In this document: positions 57,648 through 61,997 of the stretch, piece after piece | Numbering within the stretch: position 1 is the first letter of the stretch | How the letters are laid out: each line of letters begins with the position of its first letter | Notes under the pieces: generated by a model | What the model was told of the DNA's origin: nothing | The model's database searches: none | What the model saw: only the letters and a program-made list of their open reading frames with translations | Translations under genes and position numbers: made by a program | Source of the DNA: Actinomycetes bacterium | GTDB lineage: Bacteria; Actinomycetota; Thermoleophilia; RBG-16-64-13 | DNA length: 64,000 nt | Assembly (NCBI GenBank): GCA_024637095.1 | Contig: JAGXFV010000009.1 | Span: forward strand, 1 to 64,000 | Reading direction: 5' to 3'

Positions 57648-58448
57648 ATGCGTGAGTTGCGGATAGCCAACTTTCTTTCGCCGCTCCTGGAGCCGGTGTA
57701 CCGACTCGTCGCCGAGGAAGTGGGCCGAGAGTTCGACGTGCCCGTGGAATTCGTAAACGGCCGATCCTTTTCGCAGTTTGCTTCGGGCGAGGTCGACGCG
57801 GGCTTCATCTGAGGCCTGCCCTACGTGCTCCTGCGGCGGGAGGATCCTCCACCGGTGGAGCTGCTGGCCGCTCCCGTGTTGGAGGGCGAGCGCTATCAGA
57901 ATCGTCCGATCTACTTCTCCGACGTAATCGTTCGCCGGGGTAGCGACATGGTTGGGGGCTTCGAGGCGCTGCGCGGCCGTTCGTGGGCTTATAACGACCC
58001 GTTTTCCCACTCGGGTTACAACCTCACCCGTTACGAGTTGATCCGCCGCGGCGAGACCGGAGGCTTTTTTGGCAGGGTAGTCGAGGCCGGTTCCCACCTC
58101 AACGCTCTGGGCTTGGTGGCGGCGGGAACGGTAGATGCTGCCGCCATCGATTCGCAGATTCTCGCCGTCGTGTTTCGCGATTCGCCGGAACTGGCGGAAT
58201 CGCTGCGAGTGATCGATGTATTCGGTCCCTCGACTATCCAACCGATGGTGGCGGCATCGCGGCTGCCGCAGGGTATCAAGGAGCGCCTGCGCGCGCTGCT
58301 GCTCGATTTGCCCGGGGGTGAACGCTCGCGCTCGGCGCTCGGCTACGGTTTCGTGCGCCGCTTCGCCCCGGTGACCGACGCGGATTACGACGATATCCGC
58401 GACATGCTCGGTGCGGCCGAGGATCTCGGGTTCATGTCCTTGCGCTGA
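57648..58448 (+). CDS. PhnD-like solute-binding-fold protein with in-frame UGA (candidate selenoprotein or nonsense mutant)
   Basis: The frame from ATG 57648 runs to TGA 58446-58448 apart from one TGA at 57810-57812 (codon 55). Both parts belong to one protein: LRIANFLSPLLEPVYRLVAEE and FASGEVDAGFI before it, GLPYVLLRREDPPPVELLAAPV and HSGYNLTRYELIRRG after it. Related proteins, as I recall them, have Cys at this point (FICGLPYV), so the UGA may encode selenocysteine. The 211 codons beyond are undamaged. A possible hairpin (CCTGCC 57815-57820 with GGCGGG 57835-57840) starts 3 bases after the UGA. No signal peptide. Alternative: a recent nonsense mutation. Confidence 0.7.
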
Positions 58449-58640: not shown

Positions 58641-59942
58641 TTGTGCAAGATTTTGGTGGCCGGTGGCGGTTGGGCGGGAGTGGCTGCGGCCTACGCTGCC
58701 AGGCTCGCCGGCGCCGAAGTCCAACTGCTCGAGCGGACCGACATGCTGCTCGGAACCGGCCTCGTGGGCGGGATCCTACGTAACAACGGGCGCTTCACCG
58801 CCACCGAAGAGCACATCGCTCTGGGCATGGACGGGCTCTGGTCGGTGATCGACGAGAATCTGCGCCACCGTGACGTGCGCTTTCCCGGCCATGAGCACGC
58901 CGATCTCTACGATGTCACTACCATCGAGCCGGCCGTGCGCCGTTTTCTCGAAGTGCAGGGAGTTGAGCTTCACATGCGCACTCGGGTGAGCCGGTCCGCG
59001 CACGACGGCGCCCGGCTCACGGCTGTGGCGGCCGCCGATGTGTGGTTCGAGGCGGACGCCTTCGTCGATGCCACCGGCTCCTTCGGGCCGCAGGGCAACT
59101 GCACCCGGCATGGAAACGGATGCGCGATGTGCATCCTTCGCTGCCCCAGTTTTGGCGGCCGGGTGAGCCTGGCGCAGGAGGCGGGCATCGCCGAATTGCG
59201 GGCAACGCGCATGGACGGCACTGTCGGGGTGATGAGTGGCTCCTGCAAGCTCCATTCCGACTCGGTCTCGCCGGAATTGCGGGCTCAGCTTGCCGATACC
59301 GGCGTCGCCGTGGTTCCGTTGCCGGCGGAACTGCGAGAGGGCAAGGACGAGTTACTGGGGGCAAAAGCCTGCCAGCAGTATGCGCTACCCGAGTTCGCCG
59401 AGAATCTGGTGCTGCTCGACACCGGCCACGTCAAGCTGATGACTCCCTTCTTCCCTCTGGATCAGTTGCGGCGCGTACCCGGGTTGGAGAATGCCCGCTA
59501 CGAAGACCCCTATGCCGGAGGGATCGGCAACTCCATCCGCTACCTCGCGATGACTCCTCATCGGGAGGATCTGCGCTGCGAGACCATCGACAATCTCTTC
59601 GTCGGCGGAGAGAAGACGGGGCCTTTTGTGGGGCACACGGAGGCGATGGTGAGCGGCTCGCTCGCCGGGCTGAACGCCGCACTCGGGGCGGATGGGCGTG
59701 AGCCCTTGATTCTGCCGCCGACTCTCGCGGTCGGCGATGCATTGGCCGCCGTGGGCGAGGTGATGCACGCGGGACTTCTCAGCCGCAAGCTCACCTTCTC
59801 CGGCTCCTGGTACTTCGAGCGAATGAAGGACAAGGGGCTCTACAGCACCGATCGGGACGAGATCGGGCGGCGGGTGCAGGAGGCGAGGTTGACCGGAGTC
59901 TTCAAGAAGGCAGGAAGGGCCCAAGGCGCTTCCGTCGCCTAA
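58641..59942 (+). CDS. GidA-like FAD-dependent oxidoreductase with a Cys cluster
   Basis: A 433-residue flavoprotein: N-terminal dinucleotide motif ILVAGGGWAGVAAAYAARLAGAEVQLLER, second motif DAFVDATGSFGP and C-terminal FAD-binding LFVGGEKTGPFVGHTEAMVSGSLAGLNAAL. It resembles MnmG/GidA in plan but is much shorter than MnmG and lacks its C-terminal helical domain. A compact cluster of four Cys (residues about 154, 161, 164 and 168, within GNCTRHGNG and CAMCILRCP) could bind iron-sulfur or be redox-active. TTG 58641 is used. Its neighbours suggest a role in handling an imported small molecule. Confidence 0.75.
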   Translation: MCKILVAGGGWAGVAAAYAARLAGAEVQLLERTDMLLGTGLVGGILRNNGRFTATEEHIALGMDGLWSVIDENLRHRDVRFPGHEHADLYDVTTIEPAVRRFLEVQGVELHMRTRVSRSAHDGARLTAVAAADVWFEADAFVDATGSFGPQGNCTRHGNGCAMCILRCPSFGGRVSLAQEAGIAELRATRMDGTVGVMSGSCKLHSDSVSPELRAQLADTGVAVVPLPAELREGKDELLGAKACQQYALPEFAENLVLLDTGHVKLMTPFFPLDQLRRVPGLENARYEDPYAGGIGNSIRYLAMTPHREDLRCETIDNLFVGGEKTGPFVGHTEAMVSGSLAGLNAALGADGREPLILPPTLAVGDALAAVGEVMHAGLLSRKLTFSGSWYFERMKDKGLYSTDRDEIGRRVQEARLTGVFKKAGRAQGASVA

Positions 59943-59981
59943 CCCTGGGAAAAACACGAGCTATCGGAGGACAGGACGAGG

Positions 59982-61124
59982 ATGAAGCGCATCGGGATTT
60001 TGGGCTGGGCGGCGCTGCTATTGCTGCTGGGGCTGGCGGTTATCGTCGGCTGCGGCGACGACGAACCGGCGGTCGACACCACTGAGGGCACGGAAGTCAC
60101 CGAGGCGGGGGCCGGGGAGACCCAGGCCGGCGAAGGCACGGCCGATTTCCAGCCGCTTGATCCCCGGGTAGAGGTCAACGTGGCCTTTGACGATGCTCCC
60201 GGCACGGCCGGCATCATCCTGGCCGACAAGTTCGGCTTCTTCGACGAGGTCGGCATCGATATCAAATACACCAAATTCAATACCGGCGCCGACATGTATA
60301 CGTCACTGGCCGCCGACCAGGTGGACGTGGGGCGCGGCATCATCACGGCCTCTCTCTTCAACGGGGCCGCTCGGGACATCGCCGTGCGCGTGGTCGCCGA
60401 CAGTGGGACCAACGTGGAAGGCGCGGGCAATTACTTCGGCCTCGTGCTGCGCAAAGAGATCGCCGACGAGATTCAGGACTACAGCGATCTCGAGGGCCGC
60501 AAGATCCTGATCGTCTCCCGAGGGAGCATCAACGAACTCTTTCTTGAGCTTGCCTTGGCCAAGGGCGGCCTGACCATCGAGGACGTCGACGCGACGGTCA
60601 TTGATTCCTTTTCCGACCTCAACATTGCTCTGGCCAACGGGGCCGCCGATGCAGCGGTTCAGATCGAGCCCCTGATCACGCGCGGCGAACAGGAGGACAT
60701 CCTGGTGGCCTTCGGGGACGCCTCGGAATACGCGCCCGACGAGCAGGTGGCCGCTCTCCTCTACGCACCATCCTTCGCCGAGAAGACCGATGTGGCCCAG
60801 GCTTTCATGATCGCCTATCTGAAAGGCGTACGCATGTACAACGACGCCATCGTCATGGGCGACAAGGACCGGGAGGAGGTCGTCCGGGTGCTCAGCGAGA
60901 ACACCTTCGTGGACGACCCTGAGCTCTGGACCATCATGCGTCCCACGGGACTCAACCCGGACGGCGAGGTCAACGCCGAAGCGGTTTCCCGCGATCAGCG
61001 CTTCTACGTGGAGAAGGGACTGGTCGAAGAACCGGCGCCGATCGAGGAAGTGGTCGACAACTCGTTCGCGGAGTTCGCTGTCGATTATCTGGGGCCGTAC
61101 GAGCCGCCGGCCGAGGGGCAGTAA
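59982..61124 (+). CDS. ABC transporter substrate-binding lipoprotein (SsuA/TauA/NMT1 type)
   Basis: Lipobox LGLAVIVGC, a Thr/Glu/Gly-rich linker, then a solute-binding domain of the sulfonate/nitrate/pyrimidine precursor class: VEVNVAFDDAPGTAGIILADKFGFFDEVGIDI, SLAADQVDVGRGIITASL, LEGRKILIVSRGSINELFLELAL, ANGAADAAVQIEPLITRG. 380 residues. ATG 59982 follows ATCGGAGGACAGGACGAGG. It delivers the substrate to the permease and ATPase that follow. The ligand cannot be read from sequence. Confidence 0.9.
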   Translation: MKRIGILGWAALLLLLGLAVIVGCGDDEPAVDTTEGTEVTEAGAGETQAGEGTADFQPLDPRVEVNVAFDDAPGTAGIILADKFGFFDEVGIDIKYTKFNTGADMYTSLAADQVDVGRGIITASLFNGAARDIAVRVVADSGTNVEGAGNYFGLVLRKEIADEIQDYSDLEGRKILIVSRGSINELFLELALAKGGLTIEDVDATVIDSFSDLNIALANGAADAAVQIEPLITRGEQEDILVAFGDASEYAPDEQVAALLYAPSFAEKTDVAQAFMIAYLKGVRMYNDAIVMGDKDREEVVRVLSENTFVDDPELWTIMRPTGLNPDGEVNAEAVSRDQRFYVEKGLVEEPAPIEEVVDNSFAEFAVDYLGPYEPPAEGQ

Positions 61125-61130
61125 GAAGAA

Positions 61131-61997
61131 GTGGGCAGCACAACGGAGGACTACGGCGTGGTGGCGAATCAGAGTACAGCGGTTTCGGAAGAGACGGTTC
61201 CGCGGGAGCAGCCGGAGTGGCGCCGTCTGCGGCCTTCCTCGGACAGGCTGAGGAGCCTCCTCGGCCTGCTGTCGCCGTTGGCCCTCTTGCTGCTCTGGGA
61301 AGCGGGCGTGCATCTGGGATTCGTGGACTACCGCTTCTTCCCGGCGCCGACAAGCATCCTGATGGAGACCTGGGACATGCTGCTTTCGGGCGAATTGGTC
61401 AGGGACATGGGTTGGAGTCTGTCCCGGATCTTTGTCGGCTTCTTCGGAGGCGGTTTTCTCGGCCTGATCGTGGGCCTCTCCATGGGGTTGTTCAGACCGG
61501 TGCGTTTGTTGCTTCGGCCGATCGTGTCCGCCATCTATCCGATCCCCAAGCTGGCGCTCTATCCTCTGATCTTGCTGGTATTCGGCATCTCCGAGACGGC
61601 CATGTACTTCACCATCGGGCTCGGGACCTTCTTCATGGTGCTGATCAACACCCAAGCGGGAGTGCTCAACCTGGACAAGATCTACCTGGATGTGGCCAAG
61701 AACTACGGTGCCAGTCGCAAGGATTACTACCTGAAGATCGCCTTGCCTGGAGCCCTACCCTTGATCTTCACCGGTATCGAACTGGGTATGGGCATGGCGC
61801 TCCTGCTGATCGTGGCCGCGGAAATGGTAGGCGCGGACGCCGGAATTGGCCAGAACATATGGACGGCCAGAGACACCTTCCAGATCGAGAAGATGTTCGT
61901 CTCGTTCTTTCTGATCGCCCTGCTGGGGTATCTGTTCGCCGAACTGCTCGCTGCGATTGAGCGCCGAATCGTCCCCTGGAAGCGCCAGGAGGGTTGA
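61131..61997 (+). CDS. ABC transporter permease (SsuC/TauC type)
   Basis: A 288-residue membrane protein with about six helices. The EAA loop is at IYLDVAKNYGASRKDYYLKIALPGALPLIFTGIELGMGMALLLIVAAEM, a near-perfect member of the sulfonate/taurine/nitrate permease group (shown in two parts here: AKNYGASRKDYYLKI and LPGALPLIFTGIELGMG). GTG 61131 after TAAGAAGAA. TTG/ATG overlap with the ATPase. Confidence 0.92.
   Translation: MGSTTEDYGVVANQSTAVSEETVPREQPEWRRLRPSSDRLRSLLGLLSPLALLLLWEAGVHLGFVDYRFFPAPTSILMETWDMLLSGELVRDMGWSLSRIFVGFFGGGFLGLIVGLSMGLFRPVRLLLRPIVSAIYPIPKLALYPLILLVFGISETAMYFTIGLGTFFMVLINTQAGVLNLDKIYLDVAKNYGASRKDYYLKIALPGALPLIFTGIELGMGMALLLIVAAEMVGADAGIGQNIWTARDTFQIEKMFVSFFLIALLGYLFAELLAAIERRIVPWKRQEG

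Follow-up and report, generated by a model that had tools for sequence, protein, structure and literature searches.

A binding-protein gene with an in-frame TGA

The window analysed here, the whole stretch of 64,000 nucleotides taken from a draft assembly (49 contigs, 96.6% complete), carries at 57648–58448 a gene for an AioX/ArrX-like binding protein that is very likely a selenoprotein; the gene and the features within it that are described below lie on the forward strand. The frame comprises 267 codons. Codon 55 (57810–57812) is TGA, no stop occurs among the other 265 codons, and the gene's own terminator, also TGA, is at 58446–58448. With codon 55 read as selenocysteine (Sec), the predicted product has 266 residues without a signal peptide and matches PF12974 (PhnD fold) over residues 18–247 (Pfam E 4.5e-34). 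Because this match extends across the whole protein, the halves on either side of the TGA make up one domain. An earlier note, made from the DNA letters alone, had described an intact gene interrupted by a single TGA with one protein on both sides of it, and both descriptions hold. The motif around codon 55 is FI[U]GLPYV, and alignments with the homologues and with AioX place the proposed Sec codon at the column of AioX Cys106. Upstream of the ATG, and separated from it by three sense codons, lies an in-frame TAG, which fixes the start of the gene, excludes an N-terminal extension and leaves no room for a signal peptide.

Past the TGA, comparison with the homologue from the same genus gives a dN of 0.062 against a dS of 0.508 (dN/dS about 0.12). 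Such strong constraint downstream of the TGA fits a translated product, not a pseudogene.

Cysteine or TGA at a single column

A search of 61 related genomes recovered close homologues (53–88% identity) in five members of the window's own family, each with a single TGA in the column of codon 55, which is occupied by Cys in the more distant homologues. In addition, a scan of GTDB contigs yielded 59 loci in Actinomycetota, Chloroflexota, Cyanobacteria and a few other lineages, with TGA in seven (L030, L031, L034, L035, L038, L041 and L052, five of them from genomes already found among the 61) and TGT or TGC in the other 52. Including homologues added from wider genome searches, the alignment holds 105 sequences, one of which is a fragment that does not reach the column of codon 55; the other 104 have Cys in 96 cases, TGA in eight and nothing else, which answers the check on homologues that the earlier note had called for. 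The seven TGA genes outside the window belong to Actinomycetota and Chloroflexota and encode proteins 48–88% identical to the window protein, and none of the eight TGA genes has any other internal stop. By title, the TGA forms come from uncultured Actinomycetota (one Thermoleophilia, one Coriobacteriales) and one Chloroflexi genome. In the tree the Sec forms do not make a single clade; the minimum is three changes in a poorly resolved topology, and the starred branches force only one.

Two further kinds of homologue were seen in these searches. An Actinomycetota fragment (L141, genome G775) has an internal TAG, and the related genomes also hold AioX/ArrX-like homologues with Cys at the column (L023–L026, L028, and L029 in genome G006), some with N-termini that look signal-type by eye.

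Selenocysteine machinery

The window genome encodes selA directly followed by selB, a tRNA-Sec (74.9 bits; cut-off 47) and selD, the set that the earlier note had proposed to look for. Here selA was called from its translation beside selB, without a family-model score. The selD gene has a single internal TGA at the position typical of Sec, so SelD is itself a UGA selenoprotein and served as an internal positive control; the gene (L111, contig C40, 12598–13521) has a strong hairpin whose GGAC loop lies 20 nt past its UGA.

All eight TGA genomes have at least one of selB, tRNA-Sec and selD. Four of the others (G001, G004, G006 and G062) have all three, G005 (76% complete) has tRNA-Sec and selD without selB, G012 (78% complete) has selB and selD without a tRNA-Sec above the cut-off, and G061 has selB only, lacking both selD and an above-cut-off tRNA-Sec. 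The genes missing from G005, G012 and G061 may reflect assembly gaps. Three cyanobacterial genomes with the Cys form (G083–G085) lack both selB and an above-cut-off tRNA-Sec. A tRNA-Sec was found in many other genomes with the Cys form, and thus the Sec form is not obligatory among organisms that use Sec.

A candidate SECIS hairpin

A putative bacterial SECIS hairpin, GUGCUCCUGCGGCGGGAGGAU, lies at 57825–57845 with its apical loop about 21 nt past the UGA (-8.2 kcal/mol; 4% of synonymous shuffles are equally good). The earlier note had suggested a hairpin beginning 3 bases downstream of the TGA. A fold of that kind is one of the alternatives, but it is a hairpin beginning about 12–15 nt past the TGA that looks like those of the relatives and conforms to the bSECIS model. 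A longer, competing hairpin with its loop 30 nt past the TGA (-18.8) may also form in the window gene. At gathering thresholds, Rfam models, SECIS among them, matched nothing in the window.

A hairpin fitting the bSECIS model is present in all eight UGA genes, but also in 19 of the 52 Cys homologues. Since this loose model did not separate the two classes, a synonymous-codon shuffle test was applied, with a suggestive outcome that is weak for L031 and L052: shuffles were as stable as the native hairpin in 0.7–7% of cases for six UGA genes and in 24–28% for those two, which show no gain over shuffles at the short-hairpin position. In L052 an alternative, strong hairpin places a GGUCG loop at 31 nt. 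Six-pair stems closing on UGGUAC, UGAUGC and UGAUAC, respectively, are found 19 nt past the UGA in L031, L034 and L041, the only genes in which the gapless six-pair register is complete, and the stem of L041 differs from that of L034 by one compensatory change, G-C to C-G. L035 keeps this stem, interrupted by a bulge, the loop of L038 is at 20 nt, and in the window gene and L030 the stem is slightly shifted and its loop stands at 21 nt. In the window lineage, SelD hairpins carry a GGAC loop 20 nt past the UGA. A G stands 21 nt past the UGA in all eight sequences, partly owing to a conserved Leu codon. The SECIS evidence, weak gene by gene, agrees with the other lines and would not by itself carry the case for Sec.

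Fold and ligand pocket

In a profile ranking against the PDB, the window family matched AioX (2.6e-29) and ArrX (1.6e-28) ahead of PtxB (1e-14) and PhnD (about 1e-7). Sequence identity to AioX is 28–30%. The AlphaFold model of the window protein (mean pLDDT 96.6, pTM 0.92) likewise has ArrX and AioX as its best Foldseek matches (TM 0.78–0.84) and places Sec55 immediately N-terminal to helix 56–63. The solute-binding fold named in the earlier note fits the PF12974 match; the kinship with AioX and the absence of a signal peptide had escaped it.

The AioX pocket consists of Tyr88, Cys106, Tyr131, Ser161, Ser163, His192 and Asp210, and in the crystal Cys106 is linked to arsenite (PMC5908839). Mapped through the AioX sequence alignment, and counted over the 105 sequences, the equivalents of Tyr131 (Tyr89, 57912–57914; 103 of 105), of Ser161 and Ser163 (within Ser120-His121-Ser122, 58005–58013; both serines in 105 of 105), of His192 (His150, 58095–58097; 105 of 105) and of Asp210 (Asp168, 58149–58151; 105 of 105) are conserved together with the Sec or Cys at the Cys106 position. 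Tyr88 is not: the window protein has Phe41 there (57768–57770), and Phe, Tyr, Leu, Trp and other residues occur across the family. In PhnD the Sec column is occupied by Gly (PMC5908839). No conserved second Cys or Sec that would make a CxxU or UxxC motif was found in the family.

AioX and ArxX bind arsenite with Kd values of 177 nM and 311 nM; the ligands of ArrX, whose pocket is very similar, are arsenate and phosphate (PMC5908839). Because one residue set serves these different ligands, the ligand of the window protein cannot be read from the pocket.

Genomic context

The window gene is flanked by genes for a serine hydrolase, an FAD oxidoreductase and an NMT1-type ABC transporter; the last two occupy 58641–61994, where the FAD-dependent oxidoreductase is followed by an NMT1-type substrate-binding protein and a permease. 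Among the loci compared, only that of the same-genus genome (L030) shares the FAD oxidoreductase 3' of the gene. No neighbours are conserved across the 59 loci beyond close relatives, no histidine kinase/response regulator pair (XSR cluster) adjoins the window gene, and no arsenic genes were recognised beside the gene in the neighbours examined. Inspection by eye showed no signal-like N-termini among the relatives checked. Given the missing signal peptide and the lack of an adjacent kinase/regulator pair or of shared neighbours, the window protein is probably a stand-alone, cytosolic protein.

Elsewhere in the family, Cys forms recur in Nostocales and other cyanobacteria (L070–L085), and at several of these loci a short conserved ORF (about 100 residues) lies directly upstream on the same strand. 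Culturable hosts of the Cys form include Tengunoibacter, Dictyobacter, Nostoc and Calothrix. In an Anaerolineaceae genome (L039, 560–2820) the Cys form lies between a gene for an ArsR-type HTH/rhodanese fusion and one of metallo-beta-lactamase fold with the appearance of a persulfide dioxygenase, both neighbours being read by eye.

How the TGA is read and what the protein may do

Several readings of codon 55 compete with Sec. In a draft assembly of this kind the TGA might stem from a recent nonsense mutation or a miscalled base, yet we consider this negligible: the constraint past the TGA is strong, and the recurrence of the same in-frame TGA in seven other genomes of two phyla, without a further internal stop, rules out sequencing error or chance. 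It is scarcely more credible that a suppressor tRNA or a changed code lets UGA stand for Cys, Trp or another standard residue. The homologous residue is indeed Cys, but TGA terminates the window gene itself and 18 of the 51 long ORFs of the window, the genome has a complete Sec system, and the eight genes contain no second TGA that would have to be read through. Equally improbable is a true stop serving regulated truncation, which would yield a 54-residue peptide or, from a GTG start at 57825 past the TGA, a separate product; residues 1–54 belong to the same domain as the rest, and the UGA column is that of the invariant ligand Cys of the family. The selenocysteine reading put forward in the earlier note is thus upheld by a column restricted to Cys and UGA, by the Sec machinery and by the constraint past the TGA, and Sec is almost certainly inserted at codon 55, as far as genomic evidence can tell. 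Ordinary annotation is likely to label the gene as truncated or as a pseudogene in these lineages.

We propose that the UGA at 57810 would be decoded as Sec through SelA, SelB, tRNA-Sec and SelD, aided by a hairpin shortly downstream, to give a soluble two-domain binder of the AioX/ArrX type in which a selenol replaces the thiol ligand at the helix start in the ligand pocket. That the gene encodes a selenoprotein with an AioX-like pocket we hold with high confidence, leaving ligand and role aside. A thiophilic oxyanion would then be held by a bond from selenium to the metalloid together with Tyr89, Ser120, Ser122, His150 and Asp168, and the binder would act as a sensor or a scavenger. Arsenite is the first candidate, because Sec replaces the Cys that bonds arsenite in a conserved pocket and there is no conserved redox partner Cys; the chance that the ligand is arsenite or another thiophilic oxyanion is about even. 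A role in sensing or scavenging is more speculative, buffering or delivery of the ligand being further possibilities. Only tentatively do we advance the idea of a cytosolic metalloid sensor or sponge based on a selenol, where Sec directly ligates arsenite (or selenite or antimonite) and tunes binding instead of serving redox catalysis, and of which the Cys version is widespread in Chloroflexota, Actinomycetota and Cyanobacteria.

A rival of real weight, to which we give somewhat under an even chance, accepts the selenoprotein but not the arsenite binder: Sec might be redox-active, might bind selenium or sulfur species, or might be protective in a phosphate/phosphonate-type binder. A review regards most selenoproteins as redox proteins (PMC13188914), the window protein has no signal peptide, arsenic genes were not recognised among the neighbours examined, and the ligands of ArrX point the same way (PMC5908839). 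Against this stand the absence of a conserved second Cys or Sec for a CxxU or UxxC motif and an invariant residue set that is that of the AioX oxyanion pocket.

Comparison with known systems

Among the 119 families or subfamilies of prokaryotic selenoproteins inventoried in a 2026 review there is no PF12974 or AioX-like entry (PMC13188914), in keeping with the remark in the earlier note that Sec was not known to be described in this family. Literature searches, with partial coverage of the literature, also found no selenoprotein of the AioX-like PF12974 family. To judge from these comparisons, the AioX-like PF12974 binder is very probably a selenoprotein family outside the current catalogue. 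It also draws attention to AioX-like proteins of the cytosol as a family still to be characterised, with members in Chloroflexota, Actinomycetota, Cyanobacteria and some further lineages. The substrate-binding selenoproteins in the catalogue are SaoX and SaoB, with the motifs UxP and CUxxT (PMC13188914). They too are selenoproteins of the ABC solute-binding type, but the window family has U-G-L-P-Y instead, and the SaoX and SaoB models (NF040735 and NF040727) matched none of 12 family members at E up to 1. The SelD of the window genome (TIGR00476), likewise a UGA selenoprotein with a loop about 20 nt past the UGA, is an unrelated enzyme.

PhnD and PtxB (TIGR03431 and TIGR01098) share the Pfam family PF12974 with the window family, which scores far under their curated cut-offs (78 against 261 bits and 79 against 112 bits, respectively); in NCBIfam it also shows weak matches to the Rv1680 SBP-like family. 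The closest known systems are AioX, ArxX and ArrX, with which the window family has in common the fold, the pocket Tyr, two Ser, His and Asp, a ligand residue at the Cys106 column and, from AioX, the CGxP motif. It differs from them in having Sec for Cys in eight members, in the loss of a conserved Tyr88, and in the absence of a signal peptide and of an adjacent histidine kinase/regulator; it is also four residues shorter ahead of the Sec, through a deletion, and carries an insertion ahead of Tyr89. Whereas catalogued selenoproteins are mostly related to redox enzymes, here Sec would sit in a binding pocket and not in a redox motif. It would take the ligand position in an oxyanion-binding fold that is not enzymatic, and the Cys form of this fold has been solved with arsenite bound. 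Thus, with this Sec/Cys pair in a structurally characterised binding fold, one can test what advantage selenium has over sulfur when a ligand is bound.
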